Shown here: one piece after another, positions 15,979 to 30,313 of the stretch | Layout of the letters: each line of letters starts with the position of its first letter | Position numbering within the stretch: the stretch's first letter is position 1 | Origin: Clostridiaceae bacterium | Lineage (GTDB): Bacteria; Bacillota; Clostridia; Lachnospirales; Lachnospiraceae | Assembly (NCBI GenBank): GCA_902362865.1 | Contig: CABIYE010000027.1 | Location: forward strand, 1 to 46,727 | Direction of reading: 5' to 3' | Length of the DNA: 46,727 bases | Made by a program: the position numbers and the translations under genes | The notes under the pieces: generated by a model | Told to the model about the DNA's origin: nothing | Database searches by the model: none | Seen by the model: the letters and a program-made list of their open reading frames with translations, nothing else

Positions 15979-16045
15979 TTGGGGAGTTTCCCCAACAAGC
16001 AGAAAATCGCTTTCGTGTCACGAAAGCCCTGCTTGCAGAAGAGTG
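15979..16045 (+). other. Candidate oriT region behind the relaxase
   Basis: The 320-base non-coding stretch after the relaxase holds two tight inverted repeats. TTGGGGA-GTT-TCCCCAA spans 15979-15995. GCTTTCGTG-T-CACGAAAGC (9-bp arms, one central base) spans 16009-16027, directly followed by CCTGCTTGCAG. An inverted repeat right before a short conserved nick-like sequence is the layout of MOBP origins of transfer. No nick consensus was verified, so this is a candidate; the segment 15906-15978 shows nothing else. Confidence 0.4.
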
Positions 16046-16172: not shown

Positions 16173-16400
16173 ATGGATTTCATGACGATTAAGCAGGCTT
16201 CTGAAAAATGGGGCATCTGCACAAGGAGAGTACAGACATTATGCACAGAAGGGCGAATTGATGGTGCCGAGCGTTTAGGCCATCAGTGGGTCATTCCTAT
16301 TAACGCCGAAAAGCCGAAGGATGCCAGAATCAAAAGCGGCAGATACATTAAAACAAAATCCGGAAATGGAGAGAACGAAGATGGAAAGAAAACCGTATAG
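16173..16400 (+). CDS. Helix-turn-helix protein at the head of the BREX remnant
   Basis: A 75-residue MerR/excisionase-type DNA-binding protein: MTIKQASEKWGICTRRVQTLCTEGRIDGAERLGHQWVIPINAEKP is a winged HTH with the usual GxxWxIP ending. It overlaps the start of brxA by 20 bases and shares its promoter, so it is probably a regulator of the cluster. It is not the large WYL-type BrxR seen in other BREX loci. A basic tail (RYIKTKSGNGENEDGKK) follows the domain. Confidence 0.75.
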   Translation: MDFMTIKQASEKWGICTRRVQTLCTEGRIDGAERLGHQWVIPINAEKPKDARIKSGRYIKTKSGNGENEDGKKTV

Positions 16401-16989
16401 TGCTGGAGCCGTGAAATTTTCGTTCTGGTTCATGGAATTTCGGAAAACCGTGCAGCTTTTGAGCGAGGGTAAGAGCTTTGCAGATATTAAAAAGTTGAAT
16501 GAAGAGACAAACATCTATGGTGCACCGACAAAACTACGAGCGCAGCAGATTTATTCTACCGTAACAGCCCGTATCAAGACATTAGATGAAAGCTTTTATC
16601 CAATCTTTCTGAGCAGTGATCTTGCTACACAAAAATTATTTGTGCTGACTGCGGCTCTTTTGCATGACACGCTGTTCTTTGATTTTGTGTATGAAGTAGT
16701 GCGGGAAAAAATGATTCTTGGTTCCGATGAGCTGACGGATGCAGATATCCGGATATTTTTCAAAAATAAGCAGGAACAGAGTGAGAAAGTGGCTTCTCTT
16801 CAAGACTATACGCTGCACCGTCTCGGTTCCTGCTATAAGACACAGCTTTATGAAGCAGGACTTTTAGAAAGCAACCAGGCAAACAGCACAAGAAAAATAC
16901 TGAAGCCAATTCTTGATATTGCATTTGAGCATTGGCTTTATGACCATGATCTTGGCATCATGGTAAAAACACTGACGGGGGTAAGATGA
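16381..16989 (+). CDS. brxA: BREX protein BrxA (DUF1819)
   Basis: A 202-residue protein (MERKPYSAGAVKFSFWFMEFRKTVQLLSEGKSFADIKKL) matches BrxA in length and in its conserved N-terminus and C-terminus. BrxA is a small DNA-binding protein and the usual first gene of type 1 BREX phage-defence operons. It overlaps the HTH gene by 20 bases and ends one base before brxB. It appears intact, but the rest of the BREX operon is missing, so the system cannot work as a whole. Confidence 0.85.
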   Translation: MERKPYSAGAVKFSFWFMEFRKTVQLLSEGKSFADIKKLNEETNIYGAPTKLRAQQIYSTVTARIKTLDESFYPIFLSSDLATQKLFVLTAALLHDTLFFDFVYEVVREKMILGSDELTDADIRIFFKNKQEQSEKVASLQDYTLHRLGSCYKTQLYEAGLLESNQANSTRKILKPILDIAFEHWLYDHDLGIMVKTLTGVR

Positions 16990-16990
16990 A

Positions 16991-17566
16991 ATGGATTTAA
17001 GCCAAAGACTGGATGAGATGGAGCTTGCAATCCATAAGCCATCTTTCCGAAAAGGAACAGGCCGCGCAAATGAGGTCAACTATTGGGTGTTTGATTATCC
17101 ACCGGAAAAGGAACTGGAAGTTCGGGAGCGCGTAGAGTATCTGAAAAATAAGAACGACCGGGGCGATGATGATTTTGAGCTTGTGGTCTTTGACCTGTAT
17201 GATATCATCATTGACTTTTTGGAAAAGAAGAACTTCATGGAGAAGTGCTATGACTTTGAAAAAAAGCGAGGAATCGAGCGTATCGTCAAGGCAGTGACCA
17301 ACTCCATGAAGGTAAATGACGATGACAGCCTGATCGTGCAATATATCAAAGAACATACGCCGGAGAATGCAGTCGTGTTCCTGACCGGCATCGGCAAGTG
17401 CTATCCGATTTTGCGCTCCCACAAGGTGCTTAACAACTTGCATCAGGCATTTGTGCGCTGCCCGGTCGTGATGTTCTTTCCGGGAACCTATAATGAACAG
17501 GAGCTGATTCTGTTCAATGAGATTAAAGACGATAACTATTACCGGGCATTCCGACTGGTAAAGTAA
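16991..17566 (+). CDS. brxB: BREX protein BrxB (DUF1788)
   Basis: A 191-residue protein (MDLSQRLDEMELAIHKPSFRKGTGRANEVNYWVFDYPPEKEL ... VVFLTGIGKCYPILRSHKVLNNL ... PVVMFFPGTYNEQELILFN) matches BrxB, whose typical length is near 200. BrxB is an essential BREX component in tested type 1 systems, with unclear chemistry. It lies between brxA (one base gap) and the brxC start 18 bases on, in canonical order. It looks complete, with no frameshift. Confidence 0.87.
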   Translation: MDLSQRLDEMELAIHKPSFRKGTGRANEVNYWVFDYPPEKELEVRERVEYLKNKNDRGDDDFELVVFDLYDIIIDFLEKKNFMEKCYDFEKKRGIERIVKAVTNSMKVNDDDSLIVQYIKEHTPENAVVFLTGIGKCYPILRSHKVLNNLHQAFVRCPVVMFFPGTYNEQELILFNEIKDDNYYRAFRLVK

Positions 17567-17584
17567 TGGATGGAGGAAACAGTT

Positions 17585-18412
17585 ATGCAGATCAAGGACA
17601 TGTTCCGAAAGAAAATTGACCGTGAGATACAGGGCGTTATCATTGTCGGTCAGGGTGAAGAAACAAATGTAGCGCAGGAGCTGGAAGAGTACGTTGTGAC
17701 CCGTGAGCTTCAGCGTCATTTTGCGGATTTCTTTGCAGCATATAAAAAAGGTATTCAGGGAACTACACCGAAAATGGGTGTCTGGATTTCCGGCTTCTTT
17801 GGAAGTGGTAAATCTCATTTCCTGAAAATCTTGTCCTATCTGCTTCAGAATAAACAGGTCGGAGACAAACATGCCATCGACTACTTCATTGAGGATCAGA
17901 AGATTACCAATCAGATGGTGCTGGCAGATATGCAGCTGGCGGCAAACACCCCATCGGACGTAATTCTTTTCAACATTGATTCCAAAAGCGATTCTAATGG
18001 CAAAGAAAATAAAGATGCCATTGTGAACGTATTCCTGAAGGTCTTCAATGAGATGCAGGGCTTTTGCGGCTCCATGCCTCACCTTGCTGACCTGGAGCGC
18101 AGGCTTTCCGAGGAAGGTCGTTTTGAAGAGTTTAAGGAAAAGTTTGAAGAAGAGTATGCTGATTTAACAGTGGAGCAAAAGCAGAAAATCGTGAATAATT
18201 GGTATGATTCAATTATGGCTTCTTTGAAGGATGATGAAAGAGTATATATCGAAACCACAGATATACATGAGTGGTTCCTGAAAAATGCCGAGAGATACGA
18301 TAATATTCGTATTTTGAAATCAAAAATGGAAAATGCAATTTTTGAAAAATTAACGGATCATTTTATTATTATGACAGGAAGTATGGCGGAAGGCACACAG
18401 GATCGTGTGTGA
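17585..18412 (+). pseudogene. brxC: Truncated BREX ATPase gene brxC fused to foreign sequence
   Basis: The N-terminus (MQIKDMFRKKIDREIQGVIIVGQ) and Walker A (ISGFFGSGKSHFLKILSYLL) identify BrxC, normally about 1200 residues. The frame stops after 275 codons. After about base 18,170 (FEEEYADLTVEQKQKI) the sequence stops looking like BrxC, becomes more AT-rich, and ends FIIMTGSMAEGTQDRV. GSxAEGT resembles the nucleotide-binding motif of nucleotidyltransferases, so a deletion may have joined brxC to part of another gene. Start 17585 has GGAGG at the right distance; an in-frame ATG at 17570 also exists. PglX, PglZ and BrxL are absent. The stretch 18413-18534 shows no gene. Confidence 0.82.
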
Positions 18413-19388: not shown

Positions 19389-19788
19389 GCGAAAGGAAGC
19401 ACGCCTCCGAAAAGGCAAGCAGTGGCTGCTCACCTATACCGGCTCACCGAAAAAGATGAACAAGCATTATCGGGAACGCTTTCATGTGGATGTTGTGACT
19501 GCCGCTAAAGATTTGCAGGAGCTGGGGGTCAACTATACACAGGAGCAGCTCGACCAGATTAAACAGGCTGAAGAACAGCGGCTCCGGCAGCGGAAAATGG
19601 AGCGGGAAGCGAAAGAACGGGAACAGCTGGCAGAACGGTATGAGGACTGCGATGGTCGTTTTGCTTTTATCGCCGGATATACAGATGGCGGCGCACCGTA
19701 TGGTGTGATGTGGGAAGAAGTAGGCATTGATCCGGGACTGCCTTTCGAGGAAAAAGTGAAGCTCTATCACATGCAGGTGTTAGACTGA
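19357..19788 (+). CDS. Hypothetical charged protein
   Basis: A 143-residue protein has a lysine-rich start (MAKKKKLTKAERKEARLRKGKQWL), a predicted coiled coil (DQIKQAEEQRLRQRKMEREAKEREQLAERYEDC) and a conserved-looking C-terminus (FAFIAGYTDGGAPYGVMWEEVGID). It overlaps the YjbR-like gene by 32 bases. I cannot assign a function. Proteins with this YTxGGAPYGVMWEE-type end are common hypotheticals on Firmicutes mobile DNA. Confidence 0.65.
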   Translation: MAKKKKLTKAERKEARLRKGKQWLLTYTGSPKKMNKHYRERFHVDVVTAAKDLQELGVNYTQEQLDQIKQAEEQRLRQRKMEREAKEREQLAERYEDCDGRFAFIAGYTDGGAPYGVMWEEVGIDPGLPFEEKVKLYHMQVLD

Positions 19789-19790
19789 TA

Positions 19791-19815
19791 ATTGTGCAAG
19801 CACCGCCTGCACAAT
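19791..19815. repeat. Inverted repeat ATTGTGCA/TGCACAAT
   Basis: ATTGTGCA (19791-19798) and TGCACAAT (19808-19815) lie directly after a stop codon, sharing the core of the repeat at 18905. No T-tract follows at once; it may form a terminator or a protein site. Confidence 0.5.
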
Positions 19816-19822
19816 TCGCAAC

Positions 19823-19851
19823 AAAAAAAGAGGAGCCAGTCCAGGCTCCTC
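19823..19851 (-). terminator. Terminator of the XRE-ImmA operon
   Basis: GAGGAGCC (19830-19837) and GGCTCCTC (19844-19851) form a perfect 8-bp stem followed, on the minus strand, by seven T residues (AAAAAAA at 19823-19829). Confidence 0.8.
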
Positions 19852-19860
19852 AAATGTACA

Positions 19861-20373
19861 TTATTTCAAAAAGTTGCTCTTATGTTCCAGTGCGTGCAGA
19901 TTATAGCCAAGTGTTGCCAGGTGCGCTACCTTCAGTGCAACCAGATTGATGTCAGTGGACATCGCACTGGCGATCTGCTCGGCTGTGTATCCATACTCAT
20001 AGATGTAACGAAGGACTTCGTTGCTGTCCATCAGGATCTCCGCTGCTACGATGTTCGCTTCATATTCCGGTTTGGATTTCATGTCGTAGAGCATGAACTC
20101 ATGAATCGGGGTGGTTTTCGCCATATTCCGGTGAAGCTGGTCATGCCCTAATTCATGTGCGCACACGATGCGCAGCATATTTTCATCCAGACTGTTATTC
20201 AGGAAAATAAAACGATTTCGCTTAATCACCCGGTACATTCCTTTCAGGGAACCAAAATTTTCGCAAAGCATGACATTGATACCAAGCTGCCTTGCAATTT
20301 CAAAAGGGTCTCTGGAACCGCAGCGTTTTACCAGTTTCTCACCGACCCGTGAAAGCTGTTCCGCATTCATCAT
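19861..20373 (-). CDS. ImmA/IrrE-type metallopeptidase
   Basis: A 170-residue zinc protease of the ImmA/IrrE type: HELGH at residues 73-77 binds zinc and provides the catalytic glutamate, with a third ligand probably the Glu in KPEYEANIVAAEILM. Such proteases cleave a partner XRE repressor after a stress signal, as in ICEBs1 (ImmA/ImmR) and Deinococcus (IrrE/DdrO). It is the second gene of a two-gene operon with the XRE gene 45 bases upstream, and it ends in a strong terminator. The C-terminal third (TAEQIASAMSTDINLVALKVAHLATLG) resembles a small helical substrate-binding region. Substrate assignment is inference from context. Confidence 0.85.
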   Translation of the reverse strand: MMNAEQLSRVGEKLVKRCGSRDPFEIARQLGINVMLCENFGSLKGMYRVIKRNRFIFLNNSLDENMLRIVCAHELGHDQLHRNMAKTTPIHEFMLYDMKSKPEYEANIVAAEILMDSNEVLRYIYEYGYTAEQIASAMSTDINLVALKVAHLATLGYNLHALEHKSNFLK

Positions 20374-20418
20374 ACCACCTCCAGTTTACAGTATAGCGAA
20401 AAGTGTGTACGATAAATA

Positions 20419-20835
20419 TCACTGATCGGATTTTTTACGCCTCGTTTTCGGGGCGTATTTTTTATTGTTCTCCTTGGCAATCCAGTAGGCATCGGTCAGA
20501 GCTTTATAAGCTCCTTCGATGGCATCTTCGCTTAATTCGCCGCCAGCGAACATACCGGTCACTTCGCTGACCAGTTCTTCAATATCTTTCGCTGCTTTTG
20601 CGCCGCCTTTTTCATGAGCTTCTACGACATAGGTGCCGCTGCTTCCCAGCAGGTACTCAGTAGTAGTATTCAGCGCATCCGCAATCTTCTGGATCGTGAC
20701 CATATTGGATGGTTTACGGCTGCCAAGCTCATAATTCTGAATTGTGCGGGCGGTTACACCGGCCTTCTCTGCAAGTTCTACCTGAGTTAAATTGGCTTCT
20801 GTTCTTTTCTCTTTCAACCTTTCTTTGAAGACCAT
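20419..20835 (-). CDS. XRE-family repressor
   Basis: A 138-residue protein: residues 1-66 form a Cro/C1-type HTH (RLKEKRTEANLTQVELAEKAGVTARTIQNYELGSRKPSNMVTIQKIADAL). A C-terminal extension (EELVSEVTGMFAGGELSEDAIEGAYKALTDAYWIAKENNKKY) may be the dimerisation or cleavage region. The start at 20835 is preceded on the minus strand by GAAAGAGG; the upstream frame to 20898 is not needed. It is divergent from the Y-family polymerase gene across an intergenic region with CACGAA dyads, so it likely represses both directions. The ImmA gene follows and is its probable protease. Confidence 0.85.
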   Translation of the reverse strand: MVFKERLKEKRTEANLTQVELAEKAGVTARTIQNYELGSRKPSNMVTIQKIADALNTTTEYLLGSSGTYVVEAHEKGGAKAAKDIEELVSEVTGMFAGGELSEDAIEGAYKALTDAYWIAKENNKKYAPKTRRKKSDQ

Positions 20836-20891
20836 AGGAATACCTCTTTCTATTTTAATAATAAACACGAACACTTTTTCATAAAATCCTA

Positions 20892-20920
20892 TTGACACGA
20901 AAAACTGTACTTGCTATAAT
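20892..20920 (+). promoter_or_regulatory. Consensus sigma-A promoter of the Y-polymerase operon
   Basis: TTGACA (20892-20897), 17-bp spacer, TATAAT (20915-20920): a full consensus match. A CACGAA half-site overlaps the -35 and spacer (20896-20901). Confidence 0.85.
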
Positions 20921-20930
20921 GACGATGAAA

Positions 20931-21018
20931 ACACGAAATACAATTCGTGTAATTATAGTATCACAAGAAATGCTGTGTGTCAATGCGTTCGTGAAAAGTT
21001 GTTCGTGCTTTCACGAAC
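20931..21018. promoter_or_regulatory. Operator cluster of CACGAA/TTCGTG dyads
   Basis: ACACGAA-6-TTCGTGT (20931-20950), GTTCGTGAAA with TTTCACGAAC (20987-20996 and 21009-21018), and nested within it GTTCGTG-4-CACGAAC (21001-21018). Further single half-sites lie at 20866-20871 and 20896-20901. The dyads sit just downstream of the + promoter and around the - promoter, as expected for a shared XRE repressor. Confidence 0.75.
20955..20983 (-). promoter_or_regulatory. Probable promoter of the XRE-ImmA operon
   Basis: On the minus strand TTGACA (20983-20978), 17-bp spacer, TACTAT (20960-20955). It faces the XRE gene, leaving a leader of about 115 bases that includes the + promoter and operators. 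Confidence 0.6.
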
Positions 21019-21036
21019 GGAGAGGAGGAATACGAG

Positions 21037-22272
21037 ATGCAAAGAGTGATTCTTCATTGTGATATGAATAATTTCTATGCCTCTGTTGAGTGTATGCTGA
21101 ACCCGGAACTGAAGAACAAGCCGGTGGCAGTGTGCGGTTCTGTGGAGGAACGGCATGGCATCGTACTTGCGAAGAACTATGCAGCAAAGGCGTTTGGCGT
21201 TTCCACGGGAGAGGCAATCTGGCAAGCAAAGCAGAAGTGCCAGGATCTTGTGATCGTGGAGCCGCACTATGAGCAATATATAAAGTTTTCAAAGCTGGCT
21301 CGTGAAATATACGGTCGCTATACCGATCAGATCGAGCCGTATGGGATGGACGAATGCTGGCTGGATGTGACCGGAAGCGGCTGCATGGGAACCGGATTTG
21401 AAATTGCAGATGAGATTCGCAGAACCGTTAAGTTTGAACTGGGTCTTACGATTTCCGCAGGAGTGAGCTTCAATAAGATTTTTGCCAAGCTTGGGTCGGA
21501 TATGAAAAAGCCGGATGCGATTACCTGTATTGAAGCAGATTCGTTCCGGGAGAAGATTTGGTGTCTTCCTGCCGCTGACTTGCTTGGAGTCGGCAGAGCG
21601 ACCGAGAAGGTTCTGTCCGGTTATGGGATTCATACCATTGGAGAGCTTGCTGCAACATCGGATGATTTCTTGAAGTGCCGCCTTGGAAAGAATGGACTGG
21701 CGATTAAGAAATATGCCAATGGACTGGATGATTCGCCGGTTATGCGTTCCGATTATGTCTCCCCAGTAAAGAGCATTGGGCACGGGATAACGACCATGCA
21801 GGATTTGGAAAATAACGCCGAAGTCTGGTGTGTCATGCTGGAACTGGTGCAGGAAATCGGAACTAAGCTGCGAACGCATAAAAAGAAAGCAGGCGGAATT
21901 GCGATTTCCATCCGCAACAATGAGCTTTTCACGAAGGAGTGGCAGTGCCGGATTAGCATTCCGACACAAAGCCCTACCTATCTGGCGAAAACCGCATTTT
22001 CTTTGTTTGCAAAGAATTATCAGTGGGAACACCCGATTCGTTCGGTGACGGTTCGGGCAATCAATCTGTTTGAAGAGGATTGTCCGATACAATACGACCT
22101 ATTCACAGATGTGAAATCACTGGATCGCCAGGAACGGCTGGACGCAGCGATTGAGCAGATTCGATTCCGATTCGGGAAAGATGCGATAAAAAATGGGGTA
22201 CTTTTTCAGAAAAGCAAGATGCCGACAGAGCGAAAAGTGGATTTGGTCATGCCGACAGGAATGATCGGTTAA
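21037..22272 (+). CDS. Y-family DNA polymerase (DinB/UmuC-like)
   Basis: A 411-residue translesion polymerase: HCDMNNFYASVE carries the first catalytic Asp (residue 9), and YGMDECWLD carries Asp105 and Glu106. A fingers/thumb HhH region (DLLGVGRATEKVLSGYGIHTIGEL) and a little-finger domain follow. Such enzymes copy damaged DNA with low fidelity. GGAGAGGAGG precedes the start. The gene is driven by a consensus promoter surrounded by XRE operators and begins a four-gene operon. It belongs to the UmuC-like subgroup common on Firmicutes ICEs and plasmids. All catalytic residues are present. Confidence 0.93.
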   Translation: MQRVILHCDMNNFYASVECMLNPELKNKPVAVCGSVEERHGIVLAKNYAAKAFGVSTGEAIWQAKQKCQDLVIVEPHYEQYIKFSKLAREIYGRYTDQIEPYGMDECWLDVTGSGCMGTGFEIADEIRRTVKFELGLTISAGVSFNKIFAKLGSDMKKPDAITCIEADSFREKIWCLPAADLLGVGRATEKVLSGYGIHTIGELAATSDDFLKCRLGKNGLAIKKYANGLDDSPVMRSDYVSPVKSIGHGITTMQDLENNAEVWCVMLELVQEIGTKLRTHKKKAGGIAISIRNNELFTKEWQCRISIPTQSPTYLAKTAFSLFAKNYQWEHPIRSVTVRAINLFEEDCPIQYDLFTDVKSLDRQERLDAAIEQIRFRFGKDAIKNGVLFQKSKMPTERKVDLVMPTGMIG

Positions 22273-22353
22273 TACAGCACCGGCAGAATCTGGTGAGTTC
22301 TTTGCTAAAAGAAGTCAACACATTCGCCGGTTTACAGAGGAGGAGCGTAGAAT

Positions 22354-22614
22354 ATGTCGGAACAGAAATGTAGAAAAGTATATGTACCTGTGAATTTGGA
22401 TGTGGATGCGGAGGGAAATATCCGTCCGCGTCTGATTCGGTGGATTGACGGACGGGTGTATGAGATCGACCGATTGAAGCATAAGTGCCGGGCTGCTTCC
22501 ACGAAGGTAGGTGGCTGCGGAATCCGCTATACGGTCATGATCGGTGGGCATGAGAGTTTCCTGTACAACGAAGATGAAAAATGGTTCGTTGAAGCAAAGG
22601 AGCCGTGCCTATGA
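22354..22614 (+). CDS. Small protein downstream of the Y-polymerase
   Basis: An 86-residue protein (MSEQKCRKVYVPVNLDVDAEGNIRPRLIRWIDGRVYEIDRLKHKCRAASTKVGGCGIRYTVMIGGHESFLYNEDEKWFVEAKEP) is a probable small beta-rich domain. It resembles the short proteins (DUF6504-like) that often follow translesion polymerase genes, but that is a resemblance only. It has a strong ribosome site (GAGGAGGAG) and its stop overlaps the next start as ATGA. Confidence 0.7.
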   Translation: MSEQKCRKVYVPVNLDVDAEGNIRPRLIRWIDGRVYEIDRLKHKCRAASTKVGGCGIRYTVMIGGHESFLYNEDEKWFVEAKEPCL

Positions 22615-23342
22615 TCCTTTCGCAGAAAAACATAGAAGAAATCGCTGTTGCAGTGATAAGAGATTTTCAAAAGTCCTTTTTCGGCAGCGAAGCAGATGAT
22701 CCGGCAAGGTTCGCACTTCCGACACCCATTGACCAGTTTGCATCCGATTATCTGAACCTGAAGGTGTCATTTCAAAAGTTGTCCTCGGACGGAAGCATCT
22801 ATGGTCTGACCGCGTATGTGGATACAGAATATCAGATAGAGGTTGATGGAAGTCAGAGGAGCATCTTCCTGAAAACCAATGATGTGGTTCTGGACAAGAG
22901 TTTCATTGAACCAGCGAATATTCGGAAACTCTGCGGAAAACGCAGATTTACGCTGGCACATGAGTGCGCTCACCAGATACTGTTTCAGCTGGATTCCGAT
23001 GACCGAAAGATAGCCTGCCATAAGAGACCGGAAGTGCGAGGAAATGGCTCGCGCGTCTTGAGAACGCAGGAAGATTGGAACGAATGGCAGGCCAATACGC
23101 TGGGAGCTGCCATTCTGATGCCTCAGTCAGAAGTGGATCGGGCGATGTGGTTCATCAACAGCAGAAAGCCTCTGGCCTGTTATGGATGGCGTTTTTACGA
23201 CAGTGACCAAGTGAAGATAGATACCTTCTGTGGTGTCTTTGGTGTTTCGAGATCAGCAGCAGCTATTCGATTGGAACAACTGGGCTATCTGAACCGGAAA
23301 AAGGATTATGAATATCGTGATCCATTGGAGGTGTGGCCATGA
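22611..23342 (+). CDS. Second ImmA/IrrE-type metallopeptidase
   Basis: A 243-residue protein with the zinc motif HECAH (residues 117-121) and a downstream WNEWQANTLGAAILMP that may supply the third ligand. The N-terminus lacks an HTH. The C-terminus (FCGVFGVSRSAAAIRLEQLGYLNRK) is typical of longer ImmA proteins, which read a signal or choose a substrate. ATG 22611 (ATGA overlap) is preferred to GTG 22605. It lies in the polymerase operon, so the protease is induced together with its likely targets. Confidence 0.82.
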   Translation: MILSQKNIEEIAVAVIRDFQKSFFGSEADDPARFALPTPIDQFASDYLNLKVSFQKLSSDGSIYGLTAYVDTEYQIEVDGSQRSIFLKTNDVVLDKSFIEPANIRKLCGKRRFTLAHECAHQILFQLDSDDRKIACHKRPEVRGNGSRVLRTQEDWNEWQANTLGAAILMPQSEVDRAMWFINSRKPLACYGWRFYDSDQVKIDTFCGVFGVSRSAAAIRLEQLGYLNRKKDYEYRDPLEVWP

Positions 23343-23599
23343 GCAGGAATATCAGAGTATCGGAACCATCTGCGGAAATGCAGATTAAAATCATCCAGGC
23401 AAAGGATGCGATTGCTTCGCAAAAGCCCAGGATTGTCAGGTGCCCTTATTGCCGACACAATTCAATCATCGTCTTTGAGGATACCAGAGGACATGTGCAG
23501 ACCAAATGTAAGGCCTGCGGACGCGAGACCGTCTTCAATGTTTTGGAGATGAGAAGATTACGGAGATTGCAGCTCTACTATTCGTCTTTGAATGGTTGA
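23339..23599 (+). CDS. Small zinc-ribbon protein
   Basis: An 86-residue protein with a four-cysteine zinc ribbon (CPYC x20 CKAC: VRCPYCRHNSIIVFEDTRGHVQTKCKACGRETVFNV). The start at ATG 23339 overlaps the previous stop (ATGA). It is the last gene of the polymerase operon. Function unknown; a nucleic-acid or protein-binding role is likely from the ribbon. Confidence 0.7.
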   Translation: MSRNIRVSEPSAEMQIKIIQAKDAIASQKPRIVRCPYCRHNSIIVFEDTRGHVQTKCKACGRETVFNVLEMRRLRRLQLYYSSLNG

Positions 23600-23653
23600 G
23601 ATGACAATAAATAACCCTATTAACACAATTTTATAAGTCATAGCTGTGCTGTG

Positions 23654-23767
23654 GAGCCGCTGACAGGCGAAGTCTTCCGAATGCCGCATGAGACAGAATT
23701 ATGGGATACCCATGTTCTGTTTTATCGGCACAGGATTTTTCTTCACCGTCATGCGGCTCTTTTTTTG
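23654..23767 (+). promoter_or_regulatory. Attenuator-like leader with competing hairpins before an XRE gene
   Basis: GCCGCATGA (23683-23691) pairs perfectly with TCATGCGGC (23749-23757), followed by CTCTTTTTTT: an intrinsic terminator. The same 5' bases also lie in TGCCG (23682-23686), which can instead pair with CGGCA (23726-23730), enclosing ACAGAA/TTCTGT and ATGGG-ATA-CCCAT. GAGCCGC (23654-23660) offers a third partner for GCGGCTC. The folds are mutually exclusive. Ends 49 bases before the XRE start. No ligand or peptide is evident. Confidence 0.6.
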
Positions 23768-23815
23768 ACCTTCCGTTGATCCGGTTCTGTACCGGCTGTG
23801 CGGAAGGAGAAACGT

Positions 23816-24106
23816 ATGTATTTTGACGCAAAAGAGTTTGGTAAGAGACTTCACGATGTTCGCACTTCCCGTGGCATTACGCAGGAGGAACTGGCGGTTC
23901 GCCTGGGCCTGGCAAGCAAGCAGCATGTCAGCCGCATGGAGAACGGTGAACGCAGCTGCTCTATTGACTTGCTGATTGAACTGTCCTGCATCCTCCATGT
24001 CAGCACGGATTATCTTCTGATGGGCAGCGAGCCAAGCAAAGAGGAAGTCAAAAATGATCTTCTTAGTATTATTTCGGAGCTGTCTACGATTGCGAAAAAA
24101 ATCTAA
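23816..24106 (+). CDS. XRE-family transcriptional regulator
   Basis: A 96-residue Cro/C1-type HTH protein (KRLHDVRTSRGITQEELAVRLGLASKQHVSRMENGERSCSIDLLIELSCILHVSTDYLLMG) with a short helical C-terminal tail. GGAAGGAGA precedes ATG 23816. It has its own leader (hairpins at 23654-23767) and is not linked to the polymerase operon. Its targets are unknown; it may regulate nearby defence or integration genes. Confidence 0.85.
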   Translation: MYFDAKEFGKRLHDVRTSRGITQEELAVRLGLASKQHVSRMENGERSCSIDLLIELSCILHVSTDYLLMGSEPSKEEVKNDLLSIISELSTIAKKI

Positions 24107-24560
24107 AAAGCATTAGGTGCAATATAACTGCTGACGGCGTAGAATCATGGTGGCTATCTTGGTGGATACCTTGATGGGTGTCATCCTCTAAGTTATCATG
24201 GGTTGCGTCATAGGACTTATCATTGGCTGTACCCATGATAGAGTGAGCATGAGTGATTTGAGCACCCTCACTGCCGTGGGCAATAAGGTGGATACAAAGA
24301 TTCAAAACTGTGTGTGGGATGTCCGGCGATTTATCTTGCTCACTAACTTGGTCATTGACTAAGTTTTTCTGACTAAGTTGGTAATTTACATTTTTCAAGA
24401 TGACTCTGAAATCTGTTGCCGTTGAGAAAATTTTCGGATTATATGCCGCTGTATATCCAGGCGGCTTTTCGGTTTCCCTGACGATTTTGCGTAGGCCGCT
24501 TCCATGACGCTCCATGTATTTCATGCGGTGGAACGGGTCAGCAATCACAGGGCTTGCCAT
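24084..24560 (-). pseudogene. C-terminal remnant of an AAA/HTH ATP-binding regulator
   Basis: On the minus strand, 158 codons encode MASPVIADPFHRMKYMERHGSGLRKIVRETEKPPGYTAAYNPKIFSTATDFRVILKNVNY. This is the conserved middle of a divergent AAA/HTH regulator (the RecG-like AlbA/COG2865 type) that is normally about 450-500 residues. The N-terminal ATPase part is missing, and the C-terminal 60 residues are a His/Asp-rich low-complexity run (THDNLEDDTHQGIHQDSHHDST). Its stop overlaps the end of the XRE gene on the other strand. It is a truncated gene that marks a former neighbour. Confidence 0.65.
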
Positions 24561-24590
24561 ATTGAACGGATACTTTTTAGTGTAAAAAAC

Positions 24591-24647
24591 AAATCAGAAA
24601 ATAAAAACGGAAAATCCGTTGATATTTTCTGATTTGCGGCGTATAAT
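24591..24647 (+). promoter_or_regulatory. Promoter and nested inverted repeat ahead of the ATPase pair
   Basis: A perfect 13-bp dyad AAATCAGAAAATA (24591-24603) / TATTTTCTGATTT (24623-24635) encloses AACGGA-AAA-TCCGTT. The promoter TTGATA (24619-24624), 17-bp spacer, TATAAT (24642-24647) overlaps its 3' arm. The 14-base direct repeat AGAAAATAAAAACG occurs at 24596-24609 and 24657-24670, on either side of the -10. The arrangement suggests a repressor site or an RNA hairpin control. Confidence 0.7.
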
Positions 24648-24699
24648 AAGATTATAAGAAAATAAAAACGAAAAAACTGTTTTTAGAGGAGGACTACCT

Positions 24700-25851
24700 A
24701 TGAAAATACTCCGCATCACCGCACAAGGACTCCCATTATTCAAAAAAGACTTGGATATTTGCTTTTATACGCAGCAACGTGTTTGCGAAGAGGACAAAGA
24801 TAGTCTTTACCGTTTGACGGATAACTACTATCTCCACTCTGCCTGTGCTTTCATTGGAATTAACGCATCTGGCAAGACCTCGGTATTAAAGGTCATTAGC
24901 TTGGCCTTAAATATTGTGAAAAATGAGCCCATCAATCATGTGGAGGCAAAAAGCATTCTTGGCGGAGCGAAGAATGTTACAATCCGCACATATTTTTATG
25001 ATAAGCGTAGCTACGTCTGTTGCTTGGAAACTGTAATTGCGGCAAAGAAGTCGAAAACAGGGGAATATGTGTATTCGATTCTGTCTGAAAGCCTTTGGGA
25101 AAAACCGATTGCAACCGTTAAGTCGAAAAAGTATCTGACAGATTTTACAGGAATGAAGCCTGTAGAGCAGCGCAATAGCGATGAAGCATACCTTTCTGAT
25201 GATGTCAGCTTTGTCATTGCACATAATAAAAAAGCGAATGATACAGTGGAAATATTCAGCCTGCTTTCCTATACGAATGTGAATGTGCTTCCATTTACCG
25301 AAGATATTCCATTGGAGGTAATTGCATTTCTCGATCCGACCATTGAGAAATTGTGTTTTGAGCAGACAGAGGGAAAAACATTTATCCACTTGAAGTTTAA
25401 GGATGAAGAAGAGATTATCCTGAATAATCCGGCAGACCTTGAGCAGTATCTGTCCTCTGGTACGATTAAGGGTATTATTACATTCTCGATGGTAAAGGAA
25501 GTTCTTCATTCAGGTGGTTATCTTCTGGTAGATGAAATAGAGAATCATTTCAACAAGGAAATTGTAACGACCTTAATGCGCTTCTTTATGGACAGCCGAC
25601 TGAACAAAAATGGCGGAACGCTTATTTTCACTACGCATTATCCGGAACTGCTGGACGAATATGACCGAAATGACGGAATTTGTATCGTTAGAAACCGTAA
25701 TGGCATTACAGCAGAAAATTTGAGCTATATATTGAAACGTAATGATATTAAAAAGAGTGATGCTTACCAGAGCGGCTTCCTTGAGGGAACAACGCCAGCA
25801 TATGAAGCGTATATGCGCTTGAAGAAAAGCCTGGCTGCTTCAATCAATTAA
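24700..25851 (+). CDS. AAA-family (AAA_15/RloA-like) ATPase of a putative two-gene defence system
   Basis: A 383-residue ABC/SMC-like ATPase: Walker A GINASGKT (53-60), Walker B LLVDEIENHF (Asp278, Glu279) and a switch His in FTTHYPELLDEY (about 313). No membrane or nuclease domain is fused. The compact layout matches the AAA_15/RloA-like ATPases of abortive-infection modules such as AbiL, PARIS and RloAB, where the ATPase senses phage and controls a small partner. It is followed 12 bases later by a TOPRIM-like gene and is AT-richer than its neighbours, a sign of separate acquisition. The defence role is inference. Confidence 0.8.
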   Translation: MKILRITAQGLPLFKKDLDICFYTQQRVCEEDKDSLYRLTDNYYLHSACAFIGINASGKTSVLKVISLALNIVKNEPINHVEAKSILGGAKNVTIRTYFYDKRSYVCCLETVIAAKKSKTGEYVYSILSESLWEKPIATVKSKKYLTDFTGMKPVEQRNSDEAYLSDDVSFVIAHNKKANDTVEIFSLLSYTNVNVLPFTEDIPLEVIAFLDPTIEKLCFEQTEGKTFIHLKFKDEEEIILNNPADLEQYLSSGTIKGIITFSMVKEVLHSGGYLLVDEIENHFNKEIVTTLMRFFMDSRLNKNGGTLIFTTHYPELLDEYDRNDGICIVRNRNGITAENLSYILKRNDIKKSDAYQSGFLEGTTPAYEAYMRLKKSLAASIN

Positions 25852-25863
25852 GGAGGCGGCAGA

Positions 25864-26382
25864 ATGGAATTAGCAAAATACAAGGCGTGTATATGTGAAG
25901 GCTCTGCCGAAGAAGCTATTATCGACATACTGGTTGATAATGATCTTCTGATTTTCAACAGAGAAGAAATGTTGGAAGAACGTGTTATCCGTTGCAGAAG
26001 TGCTAAACGATTCGAGGAGCGATACTTACGGAAAGGATTCGATGAGCAGATTTCGGTGATACGGATTTTGGATTCTCGTAGAGAGGAATTTCGATTGAGT
26101 AAAGCATATGAGCAGAAAATTGACGTGGTAAATGTCATTACTGCTCCAGAAATTGAAATGCTGATTATTCATGCGGAAGGAGCATATGATCAGTTTAAGC
26201 GTTCTGGAAAAAAACCAAGCGAATTTTGTAAAACAAATCTTCGGATGCATGATGTGAAGTCGTATGATTTTGTGAAGCAGTATTTCAGTAATCCTCAGCT
26301 CTTGGTGAAAGCCATAAAAGAGTATCGCAGAACAGCCAATATCCCCAAAGGAGAATACAGCTTGTCTGATTTGCTGAGATGA
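25864..26382 (+). CDS. RloB/TOPRIM-like small partner of the ATPase
   Basis: A 172-residue protein begins MELAKYKACICEGSAEEAIID, whose C-E-G-x-x-E pattern is the RloB/TOPRIM-like glutamate motif (Glu12). RILDSRREE (Asp70) and APEIEMLIIHAEGAY (94-108) resemble the later TOPRIM-like Asp motif and the NPxFExWxxLH-type motif of RloB. It forms an operon with the AAA ATPase (AAGGAGG ribosome site, 12-base gap). It is probably the effector. The family is divergent, so homology is moderate: a TOPRIM-like nuclease or a related fold, not proven. Confidence 0.6.
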   Translation: MELAKYKACICEGSAEEAIIDILVDNDLLIFNREEMLEERVIRCRSAKRFEERYLRKGFDEQISVIRILDSRREEFRLSKAYEQKIDVVNVITAPEIEMLIIHAEGAYDQFKRSGKKPSEFCKTNLRMHDVKSYDFVKQYFSNPQLLVKAIKEYRRTANIPKGEYSLSDLLR

Positions 26383-27747: not shown

Positions 27748-28956
27748 ATGGCGGCAAGAAGAATGATGCTTCCCGATTATGGTACGGTGAGTATGAAGGG
27801 AACGCAATATTATCGAACCCGTGTAACAGATCAGCAGGGACGGCGGGTTTCCTTATATGCAAGAACGAGAGAGGAACTGTACCAGAAGGAACAGGAAGCG
27901 ATCCAGCAGATTGAGAACAAGACGTATTGCCGCAGTACACCTACAGTGGAGGAGTATTGCGAGAAATGGCTGCTGATGCAGTCGGCACAGATCAGGATGA
28001 CAACGCTGATTGACTATACATCGAAAGTGAAGAACTACATCATCAAGCCATTGGGCGATATGCATATGGGAGATGTAACAGCAGATGACATTCGCCTGGC
28101 ACTGTTGGCGGCATCGAAAAAGTCGGCATCCGTGTACAAATCAGTGAATGTTCTATATAAGTGTATTTTCACGGCAGCAATGGAGAGTAAGATCATTGAT
28201 GAGAATCCGACCATCTATCTGAAGAAGAATGTGGGCGGGATTCCCCAGAAGGACCGCCTCCCGCTTACGGATGAGCAGGTGGATAAGCTGCTGGATGCCA
28301 TTTACGGCTTACCGCCGTATGTGTTCGTGATGCTGGGGCTGTACGCAGGATTGCGGAGAGAAGAAATCCTCGGACTTCAATGGGATTCGGTGTATCTTGA
28401 TTGCGAGGCTCCGTACCTTACCGTTCGGAGAGCCTGGCATACGGAGCATAATCGTCCGGTGATTCTGACAGAGCTGAAAACAAAGGCAGCGCATCGGAAT
28501 GTCCCTCTGCCGGACAATCTTCTGGAATGTCTGAAAGAGGCGAAGAAGACATCGACATCGGATTTTGTGGTTGCAAACCGGGATGGAGACCCGTTGTCCT
28601 ATACGCAGTTCAAGAGATTATGGCAGTATATCGTAACTCGTACCACCAAGGAACGCTGCTATTACCGCTATGAAGATGGCAAGAGGGTGAAGCATACGGT
28701 GAAGCCGGTTCTGGGGCAAAAGGCAGCACACAATGGAAATGTGGTTTACAGTCTGGACTTTGAGGTGACTCCGCATCAGCTGCGGCACACCTACATTACG
28801 AATCTGATTCATGCTTCGGTTGACCCGAAGACGGTTCAGTATCTTGCCGGTCATGAAAGCAGCAAGATCACCATGGATATTTACGCCAAGGTGAAATATA
28901 ATCGCCCAGAGCAGCTCGCAGGAGTGCTGGAAGATGCTTTTGCATCGTGGGATTAA
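27748..28956 (+). CDS. int: Tyrosine recombinase (ICE integrase 1)
   Basis: A 402-residue site-specific recombinase with the full catalytic set: Arg203 (GLRREE), His343-x-x-Arg346 (HQLRHTYITNLI), His369 (LAGHESSK) and Tyr379 (MDIYAKVKY). The N-terminus has an arm-binding segment (TVSMKGTQYYRTRVTDQQGRRVSLYARTREELYQKEQEA) and a SAM-like core-binding domain follows. It catalyses integration and excision of the ICE. GGAGGTAATG precedes the start. A terminator at 28979 separates it from the paralogue that follows. Confidence 0.92.
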   Translation: MAARRMMLPDYGTVSMKGTQYYRTRVTDQQGRRVSLYARTREELYQKEQEAIQQIENKTYCRSTPTVEEYCEKWLLMQSAQIRMTTLIDYTSKVKNYIIKPLGDMHMGDVTADDIRLALLAASKKSASVYKSVNVLYKCIFTAAMESKIIDENPTIYLKKNVGGIPQKDRLPLTDEQVDKLLDAIYGLPPYVFVMLGLYAGLRREEILGLQWDSVYLDCEAPYLTVRRAWHTEHNRPVILTELKTKAAHRNVPLPDNLLECLKEAKKTSTSDFVVANRDGDPLSYTQFKRLWQYIVTRTTKERCYYRYEDGKRVKHTVKPVLGQKAAHNGNVVYSLDFEVTPHQLRHTYITNLIHASVDPKTVQYLAGHESSKITMDIYAKVKYNRPEQLAGVLEDAFASWD

Positions 28957-28978
28957 GAGTAAATCAGAAAGAAATTAG

Positions 28979-29009
28979 GGCAGGGATGGTCAAAAATCCC
29001 TGCCTTTTT
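28979..29009 (+). terminator. Terminator between the two integrase genes
   Basis: GGCAGGGAT (28979-28987) and ATCCCTGCC (28996-29004) form a perfect 9-bp stem followed by TTTTT. Confidence 0.85.
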
Positions 29010-29026
29010 ACATACATTCGACATCC

Positions 29027-29055
29027 TTGAAGGAAGTGCTGTACGCCATGATAAT
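29027..29055 (+). promoter_or_regulatory. Promoter of integrase 2
   Basis: TTGAAG (29027-29032), 17-bp spacer, GATAAT (29050-29055), 46 bases upstream of the start codon. Confidence 0.5.
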
Positions 29056-29101
29056 AAAAGTGACAACACGCAATGTATGAAGATAGATAGGAGGAGAACA
29101 C

Positions 29102-30313
29102 ATGGCTAAAGGGAAAAAGCGTCCTGCTGAACTTCCGGAATACGGAACAGTGATGATGAAAGGGGTACAGTATTACCGCACCCGGATTACAGATGCAGAC
29201 GGAAAGAGAGTGGCGATTTACGGGCTGACACGCGAAGAATTGTATGACCGGGTGGAAAATGCCCAGAAGAAAATCGCGGAAGTGGTTTTCCATAGAGAGA
29301 ATCCGACCGTGGAAGAGTACTGTGAAAAATGGTTGCTGATGCGGTCTGGAACGGTAAGAACTAATACGTTGGAAGGATACGCACGGATGGTGAATCGGTA
29401 CATCGTGGGTCCGATTGGACAGATGTATATGGACGAGGTGACCACAGATGACCTGCGGCTGCTGATGGTTCCGTTATCAAAAGGTTCTTCCGGAATGTAT
29501 GGCCAGCTCAATATGCTGATTAAGAACATTTTTAATTCAGCAGAAGAGAGCAAGGTGATTAAAGAGAATCCATCCAAAACGATTTGCGCAAGAGGCGGAA
29601 AGCCAGCGAAACGGCGCGAGGCTTTGACGGATGAACAGACTGCCATTTTGCTGGATAGCATTCGTGAGCTTCCACCGTATGTCTTCGTGATGATCGGTTT
29701 GTACGCGGGATTGCGTAGAGAAGAGATCCTTGGATTAAAATGGGACTGCGTATTCCTGGATGAAAAAACGCCGTACATTTCGGTAAGGCGTGCATGGCAT
29801 GTGGAAGGCGGTGAGCCGGTAGTCAACACGCTATTGAAGACACCGGCAGCAAAACGAGATGTTCCGATTCCAAAATGCCTGGTAGCCTGTCTCAAGGAAG
29901 AAAGGGAAAAATCAGAATCGGAATATGTGATCTCGAATTCGAAGGGAACTGTTTTGACGGAAACACAGTTTGTGAGAGTCTGGAAGTACATAACAGTCCG
30001 TTCTACTGCAGAACGCTGTTATTACACTTATGTAAATGGACAGTCCATCAAGCATAGAATAAAGCCAAGGCTTGGTGAGCATCAGCCGAATAATCCCAAA
30101 CTGGTGTATACGATGGACTTCAAGGTGACTCCGCACATGCTGCGGCACACCTACATCACCAATCTGATTTACAAAGGTGTTGATCCTAAGACGGTGCAGT
30201 ATCTGGCAGGCCATGAGAACAGCAAAACGACTATGGACATCTATGCGAAAGTCAAGTACAATAAACCTGAGGAATTAAGCAGCGTTGTGAATGCTGCATT
30301 CGGGCTGCGTTAA
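29102..30313 (+). CDS. int: Tyrosine recombinase (ICE integrase 2), paralogue of integrase 1
   Basis: A 403-residue recombinase, by eye more than half identical to integrase 1 along its whole length (YGTVMMKGVQYYRTRITDADGKRVAIYGLTREELYDRVENA; LPPYVFVMIGLYAGLRREEILGLKWD). The catalytic Arg (GLRREE), HMLRHTYITNLI, LAGHENSK and MDIYAKVKY motifs are all present, so both copies look active. It has its own promoter and ribosome site (AGGAGGAG). It is the last gene of the ICE, and its stop is followed by direct repeats that could be arm sites. Confidence 0.92.
   Translation: MAKGKKRPAELPEYGTVMMKGVQYYRTRITDADGKRVAIYGLTREELYDRVENAQKKIAEVVFHRENPTVEEYCEKWLLMRSGTVRTNTLEGYARMVNRYIVGPIGQMYMDEVTTDDLRLLMVPLSKGSSGMYGQLNMLIKNIFNSAEESKVIKENPSKTICARGGKPAKRREALTDEQTAILLDSIRELPPYVFVMIGLYAGLRREEILGLKWDCVFLDEKTPYISVRRAWHVEGGEPVVNTLLKTPAAKRDVPIPKCLVACLKEEREKSESEYVISNSKGTVLTETQFVRVWKYITVRSTAERCYYTYVNGQSIKHRIKPRLGEHQPNNPKLVYTMDFKVTPHMLRHTYITNLIYKGVDPKTVQYLAGHENSKTTMDIYAKVKYNKPEELSSVVNAAFGLR

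Follow-up and report, generated by a model that had tools for sequence, protein, structure and literature searches.

Textbooks usually present the induced mutagenesis of bacteria as a host response under LexA control. A 46,727-nucleotide stretch of a Clostridiaceae genome (contig CABIYE010000027.1, analysed whole and called the window below) carries part of an integrative conjugative element (ICE) on which this arrangement appears to have been replaced. A repressor gene, XRE1, and the gene of an ImmA-type protease, ImmA1, point leftward (minus strand), and an operon for a Y-family DNA polymerase, a small protein (p86), a second ImmA-like protease (ImmA2) and a zinc ribbon points rightward (plus strand). 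Sequence comparison and structure modelling suggest, with a probability of about 0.65, that the locus is a protease-gated, LexA-independent switch for translesion synthesis.

Several described systems resemble parts of it. ImmR/ImmA controls excision and transfer in ICEBs1 and TnSmu1; the window differs in its divergent Y-polymerase operon, its second protease and its facing promoters. In Deinococcus, DdrO and IrrE (PprI) form an SOS-independent repressor-protease response to damage, in which single-stranded DNA (ssDNA) is reported to activate PprI (PMC10904395). This pair serves a chromosomal regulon of several repair genes, whereas the window has one mobile operon headed by a polymerase and the half-site CACGAA; the Deinococcus translesion cassette is itself described as RecA/LexA-controlled (PMC8072749). 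CapH/CapP, from CBASS and other immune operons, likewise sets a repressor and a protease of the M78 family, CapP, reported to be activated by ssDNA, over one adjacent operon (PMC13373217), but the cargo there is an immune effector and here a translesion polymerase. For Gram-positive Y-polymerases it has been proposed that they work with YolD, an SH3-barrel counterpart of UmuD expected to bind the polymerase tail (PMC6511836). This counterpart of Pol V (YqjW/UvrX with YolD) and the window share a Y-polymerase with a small operon partner and possibly, judged by eye on the window side, a conserved polymerase C-terminal tail; they differ in that the B. subtilis enzymes are described as LexA-controlled and that p86 has no Pfam YolD match. 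In the CI switch of phage 186, transcriptional interference between pR and pL and flanking CI sites have been described (PMC7708051); the window module differs in having predicted start sites about 20 bp from one another and in encoding a protease. No description of an XRE-ImmA switch for a Y-polymerase was found among the open-access literature matches listed. The repressor-protease principle is known from ImmR/ImmA, DdrO/IrrE and CapH/CapP. The locus departs from these as a variant in which the principle is coupled to a translesion operon, LexA boxes are scarce, the promoters face each other in a fixed layout and a second protease is present. The features of the locus are as follows.

19861–20373, minus strand: ImmA1, M78/IrrE-type metallopeptidase, 170 aa, with HExxH (PF06114, E 2.3e-13)
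20419–20835, minus strand: XRE1 repressor, 138 aa, helix-turn-helix (HTH) domain at residues 1–63 and predicted two-helix C-terminal domain (HTH_3, E 2.1e-14; one extra codon included)
20539–20553, minus strand: predicted cleavage loop, codons of residues 95–99 (M-F-A-G-G), between the two C-terminal helices (from loop invariance)
20866–21019, no strand: putative operator region, seven CACGAA half-sites and three dyads (motif counts)
20892–20920, plus strand: polymerase-operon promoter TTGACA-17-TATAAT (12/12 consensus)
20955–20983, minus strand: XRE1-ImmA1 promoter TTGACA-17-TACTAT, facing the polymerase promoter (10/12 consensus; geometry conserved)
21037–22272, plus strand: Y-family DNA polymerase, 411 aa (IMS, E 3.3e-43; IMS_C, 6.8e-17)
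22354–22614, plus strand: p86, small conserved polymerase neighbour, 86 aa, possible UmuD/YolD counterpart (gene context, conserved columns)
22611–23342, plus strand: ImmA2, second M78/IrrE-type metallopeptidase, 243 aa, with HExxH
23339–23599, plus strand: zinc-ribbon-like protein, CPYC...CKAC (weak, sub-threshold matches to a number of zinc-binding families)
23683–23766, plus strand: likely terminator, hairpin and T-run after the operon (fold z-score; stem read by eye)

All the genes and domains of the divergent arrangement proposed by the sequence-only reading are present, the zinc ribbon through sub-threshold matches, and p86, which that reading did not name, also belongs to the operon. 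The span it gave (20866–23599) contains the operon and leaves XRE1 and ImmA1 (19861–20835) outside. An ATGA overlap joins p86 to ImmA2 and ImmA2 to the zinc ribbon, and the last three operon genes are therefore probably translationally coupled.

The linkage between regulator and promoter layout was assessed across polymerase loci. Polymerase relatives were found at E 1e-20 in 228 of 291 Clostridia genomes, from which 30 places and then 40 more from a longer list were fetched; loci L054–L083 have a flank of 1.5 kb only. Of 119 polymerase loci, 88 distinct at 90% polymerase identity were retained, the other 31 being near-duplicates or lacking a called polymerase frame. XRE1 and ImmA1 lie upstream and divergent in 31 of the 88, and 45 have neither (these include L064 and L070, whose genomes hold XRE1-ImmA1 4–7 kb away); seven 'partial' and five 'short' loci were set aside before the test. 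A face-to-face pair of near-consensus promoters, with the −10 boxes 25–36 bp apart, is present in every one of the 31 loci and in none of the 45, and arose in 2 of 1550 shuffles. A LexA box occurs within 250 bp in 2/31 and 17/45 loci, respectively (Fisher p 0.0025, kinship ignored). The 250 bp upstream of the window polymerase contain no such box (GAACN4GTTC), and LexA control of this promoter was rejected. The claim of a LexA-independent SOS-like module is upheld as far as the lack of a LexA box goes; the SOS signal itself may still be required, through RecA.

When 87 of the 88 polymerases were placed in a maximum-likelihood tree, 30 of the 31 associated with XRE-ImmA fell in one 44-row group (support 99/93). 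The remaining one, L095, lies outside, and L013, a LexA-box polymerase, lies inside. The XRE-ImmA label requires 11 changes on the tree against a shuffled mean of 25.7 and does not define one clean clade. This pattern fits an exchange of regulator followed largely by inheritance, with a few further gains and losses afterwards. One of the 31, L055, has a stop in the polymerase frame and a split ImmA1 and may be decaying; L152, outside the 31, has a broken polymerase.

The control region between XRE1 and the polymerase contains seven CACGAA half-sites within 152 bp (20866–21017), at 20866, 20896, 20932, 20944(−), 20988(−), 21002(−) and 21012. The hexamer is not unusual in the window overall (27 copies against a shuffle mean of 21.4, with 16 of 100 shuffles reaching 27), and a 152-bp interval holding seven copies occurs at a single start position in the 46.7 kb. 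When the 198-bp intergenic region was shuffled 300 times with dinucleotides preserved, no 6-mer ever appeared seven times. The sites form a central dyad CACGAA-N6-TTCGTG (20932–20949, inside pair I4), a dyad with 11-nt perfect arms (I6, 20986–20996/21009–21019) and a dyad GTTCGTG-N4-CACGAAC (I15, 21001–21018) which shares a site with the second. The six or more half-sites and three dyads, the perfect promoter and the opposing one described from the letters alone were all recovered. Both promoters are of the sigma70 type and have TG ahead of the −10 box. Transcription is predicted to start about 7 bp past each −10 box. This would put the two start sites about 20 bp from each other, and since the promoters point at each other each early transcript would cross the opposite promoter. 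The central dyad occupies the space between the two −10 boxes, on or next to each predicted start; a further half-site overlaps the −35 box of the polymerase promoter, and the rest flank. A wider XRE1 regulon in the window was rejected: the hairpin at 16009–16027 differs in spacing and has no third site near. This hairpin, between the relaxase and BrxA genes, has perfect 9-bp arms (GCTTTCGTG-T-CACGAAAGC), contains TTCGTG-N1-CACGAA and is possibly an oriT-type feature or a product of chance.

The repeated motif varies by lineage: CACGAA in the window, ACGACA in L053, AACTTC in most phages and AAGTTC in L016, L027 and L044. Loci with the same recognition-helix residues 33–34 share motifs, with a mean of 5.87 copies against 0.82 (35 same pairs; 0 of 2000 permutations, kinship ignored). 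Despite the differing motifs, a copy of the locus's own top motif stands at −66 to −72 from the promoter midpoint in 16 of the 31 loci, many of the 16 being related phages. The 6-mer count was reached by at most one of 300 shuffles in 16 of 23 regions, the others being L008, L011, L013, L015, L029, L030 and L043.

The AlphaFold2 model of XRE1 (mean pLDDT 85.2, pTM 0.67) places its C-terminal helices at residues 67–96 and 103–125. Structural matches of the HTH domain include ImmR, DdrO and CapH; the comparison covered mainly residues 1–67, to which at least one row in five was confined, and hardly touched the C-terminal fold. By sequence, a solved 129-residue 'Transcriptional regulator' (9sf2_A) matches the XRE1 family profile nearly end to end (residues 5–133, E 4.9e-10). 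Between the helices, F96, A97, G98 and G99 are invariant in 26/26 XRE1 homologues; the loop F, G and G are invariant in 28/28 aligned homologues, and three more keep FAGG. Both the alignments and the model put the F-(A/T)-G-G of the repressors in the inter-helix linker. As ImmR is reported to be cut at F95-M96 (PMC8960796), it seems likely that ImmA1 cleaves XRE1 in the Phe-Ala-Gly-Gly loop at the equivalent of that site. In ImmA1, H73, E74, H77, H81, E103, N107 and K148 are among the residues invariant in 28 homologues, and HExxH and a downstream invariant Glu are retained in both ImmA1 and ImmA2. Both proteases match CapP and IrrE/PprI; CapP is the best solved match of each (for ImmA1 by profile, E 5.6e-6), and the ImmA2 model matches the PprI-ssDNA and IrrE structures.

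Sequence comparison and prediction give the linkage of the genes, the facing promoters, the clustering of half-sites, the fold and the place of the loop; from these we infer binding, signal, cleavage, interference and mutagenesis as follows. XRE1 bound to the clustered half-sites would silence the promoter of its own gene and, opposite it, the polymerase promoter of consensus strength. Damage to DNA, probably signalled by ssDNA, as for PprI and CapP, or by RecA, would activate ImmA1, which would cut XRE1 in the conserved loop; the repressor would then lose its dimer form and leave. Collisions between RNA polymerases on these opposed promoters, whose start sites lie about 20 bp from each other, would make the change switch-like. 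The freed operon would yield the Y-polymerase with p86 as a mutasome, ImmA2 and the zinc-ribbon protein, ImmA2 acting either in feed-forward or on another repressor. RecA is reported to be needed for ICEBs1 (PMC10233336) and by analogy may be needed here too. The proposed likeness to ICEBs1 ImmR/ImmA or Deinococcus DdrO/IrrE is supported for the type of repressor-protease pair, which faces a translesion-polymerase operon on mobile elements. Gene layout, facing promoters and predicted cleavage loop are all conserved over wide sequence distance; the damage-triggered cleavage is putative.

The module recurs in related elements and phages of the gut. A search of genome contigs with ImmA2 gave 12 loci, seven of which hold the module at 96–99% ImmA2 identity (in Pseudoflavonifractor, Gemmiger, a Lachnospiraceae bacterium, Enterocloster, Faecalibacterium, Roseburia and Brotaphodocola). 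Such identity across genera with differing neighbours implies that the module moved recently between genera. In a Monoglobus record, a related module lies near tet(O/32/O) and tet(40). Among viral contigs, some of which end close by, the polymerase found 32 loci: XRE1 and ImmA1 are upstream and divergent in 20, XRE1 only in five and neither in seven. Three named Ca. Heliusvirales phages carry XRE1-ImmA1 facing the polymerase; in a fourth (L048) no such pair was found, and its place opposite the polymerase is taken by a different annotated repressor. Behind the polymerase, all four phages have a second DNA polymerase and a helicase transcribed the same way, which suggests that in these phages XRE1 is probably the lysogeny repressor; an exonuclease is annotated in one and an ssDNA-binding protein in two.

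A reverse survey started from the repressor. The C-terminal domain of XRE1 found 54 places in 44 of the 291 genomes, of which 30 were fetched, several being nearly identical to one another or to loci already in the set; the terms 'polymerase' and 'ImmA1' at these loci denote matches at E 1e-5 to profiles built in this analysis. ImmA1 adjoins XRE1 in all 30, and a Y-polymerase lies within 7 kb in 22. It is divergent and adjacent in 12 (L124, L125, L127–L130, L133, L134, L137, L147, L152 and L153), downstream on the same strand in four (L136, in whose genome the window polymerase had found no relative at E 1e-20, L139, L146 and L150) and 4–7 kb off in six (L138, L140–L142, L144 and L145). Among 20 further loci scanned for the promoter pair are four with the polymerase after ImmA1 on the same strand, and all four lack the pair (0/4). 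In L126 (533–1093) and L131 (543–1115), similar-looking unknown proteins of 186 and 190 aa replace the polymerase opposite XRE1-ImmA1, with the promoter pair kept. From the sampled sequences, the XRE1-ImmA1 switch is a general device whose commonest partner is the Y-polymerase.

A number of observations weigh against a dedicated, LexA-free mutagenesis switch. The promoter-pair thresholds were chosen after inspection of the data, and the pair also occurs in 8 of the 20 further loci, where the divergent gene is not a polymerase (L008, L011, L126, L131, L132, L135, L141 and L149). No Y-polymerase was found near the remaining 8 of the 30 repressor loci, one of which has p86 divergent; together with the polymerase-free versions of the module in L008–L012, this implies that the switch is not exclusively for mutagenesis. 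The top 6-mer count is only 3–4 in 15 of the 31 loci, and the half-site clusters are non-significant in L008, L011 and L015, all of which carry XRE-ImmA. L015 and L072 possess a LexA box besides XRE-ImmA, as does L043, which is cut off before ImmA1. In addition, comparison of the XRE1 C-terminal domain with PDB sequences gave no convincing match (best E 0.17). In L015 (3701–3853) the polymerase promoter has the LexA box between its −35 and −10 elements, and dual control of L015 and L072 is possible.

Other functions can be envisaged for the same layout. The switch might respond to entry of the element, in the manner of a phage lysogeny switch: the consensus promoter would fire in a cell free of XRE1, the polymerase would help to complete or repair the incoming strand, and XRE1 would then build up and shut it off, with damage induction through ImmA1 secondary or absent. 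A promoter at full consensus would indeed give a strong burst in a naive cell, and the Heliusvirales phages, with a repressor facing the polymerase (XRE1-ImmA1 in three, another in the fourth) and replication genes behind it in all four, suit such a zygotic role. It would leave unexplained why a protease with a conserved active site adjoins the repressor in 30/30 fetched loci and why the loop is invariant; moreover, the window operon appears to stop after the zinc ribbon, without replication genes. We consider this unlikely, although it is the most plausible of the alternatives. XRE1-ImmA1 could also be the master switch for transfer and excision of the ICE, the polymerase being only the first gene under its control, as ImmR/ImmA is reported to govern ICEBs1 and TnSmu1 entire (PMC8960796, PMC10233336), and integrases do lie about 4 kb downstream of the operon. 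Within the window, which is the part of the ICE covered by the scan, clusters of at least three half-sites are confined to the control region, and a hairpin with a T-run and a second XRE gene (23816–24106) separate the operon from the integrases; these observations make control of the whole element improbable.

A toxin-antitoxin or addiction pair, with XRE1 as antitoxin, ImmA1 as toxin and the polymerase as a mere neighbour, would agree with the listing of XRE and M78-protease pairs among predicted toxin-antitoxin systems. Distant phages and ICEs nevertheless keep the polymerase linked to the pair and have the promoter pair and operator layout in common, and this explanation appears very improbable. 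A protease-gated translesion switch remains the favoured interpretation. A broader and distinctly speculative extension of it is that a branch of translesion polymerases in gut-Clostridia mobile elements and Heliusvirales phages left LexA and carries its own protease-cleaved repressor with a bistable face-to-face promoter pair, in effect a private SOS that can be transmitted. ImmA2, appearing only once the switch has flipped, would be an amplifier or a weapon cutting repressors of its own or other resident elements.

The distribution of ImmA2 bears on its role. It lies downstream of the polymerase in the window near-copies, in L055, in L049, L056 and L057 and in the phage loci L029, L037, L045, L047 and L048; it accompanies XRE1-ImmA1 in L008–L012, where the divergent operon has no polymerase; and in L013 it shares an operon under a LexA box with the polymerase and p86, in a stretch without an XRE1-ImmA1 pair. 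The zinc ribbon accompanies it in L008–L012 and L055, and no partner of ImmA2 is constant across loci. A role merely as a second protease for XRE1 was rejected: because L013 has ImmA2 in a LexA-box operon without the pair, ImmA2 is probably not simply that. Feed-forward on XRE1, action on the repressors of other elements and processing of a mutasome part are all possible. The suggestion that two proteases would be unusual is correct against textbook examples and must be qualified by their recurrence in further phages and ICEs. In L008 (2546–4413; also L009 and L010), XRE1-ImmA1 is divergent to p86, ImmA2 and the zinc ribbon, and in L011 (1414–2947) to ImmA2 and the zinc ribbon; the face-to-face promoters are retained in L008 and L011.

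The p86 protein adjoins Y-polymerases both with and without XRE-ImmA and has 14 invariant columns across 16 sequences. Its identification as Pfam YolD was rejected, since none of the 16 homologues matches PF08863 at E up to 1 by sequence profile alone, as was a sequence relationship to a solved protein (best E 0.26). It is a candidate functional counterpart of YolD. By eye, most polymerases of the XRE-ImmA branch end in an MP(T/G)-type tail, and many LexA-box polymerases in HPVSYF- or HPVGF-type tails. On the plasmid L051 (1–13888), which has a MobP3 relaxase and a coupling protein, a LexA-box Y-polymerase and p86 lie near SIR2, DNA ligase and Ku, bringing translesion and end-joining functions together.

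The window operon appears to end at the hairpin and T-run after the zinc ribbon. The fold of 23675–23785 has a z-score of −4.58, with none of 200 shuffles equally good; an outer GCCGCATGA/TCATGCGGC stem ahead of TCTTTTTTT was seen by eye and is absent from the predicted minimum fold. No Rfam family reached its gathering score in 19700–24800. The ICE portion of the window includes a topoisomerase, MobC and the relaxase at the left and, at 27748–30313, tandem tyrosine integrases about 57% identical to one another; both also occur in L002 and L003 (partly cut by the stretch end), with more distant copies in L005. A truncated BREX system occupies 16321–18412: complete BrxA and BrxB domains, then 280 aa in which the matches to DUF6079/AAA are only weak. 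The window proteins scanned showed no other BREX gene. The second XRE gene (23816–24106), past the operon hairpin, is kept in most near-identical ICEs and is replaced in L005 by an XRE of 33% identity. An AAA_21 ATPase followed by a 172-aa protein without a Pfam match (24700–26382) might be a two-gene defence pair; the L005 stretch contained no match to it.

With its conserved loop and promoter pair, the proposed mechanism is open to direct testing. This mobile element and its phage relatives appear to supply many gut hosts with a circuit of their own from DNA damage to mutagenesis. In that case the rate of mutation under stress would be set in part by the mobilome, and the circuit would escape silencing by a non-cleavable LexA.

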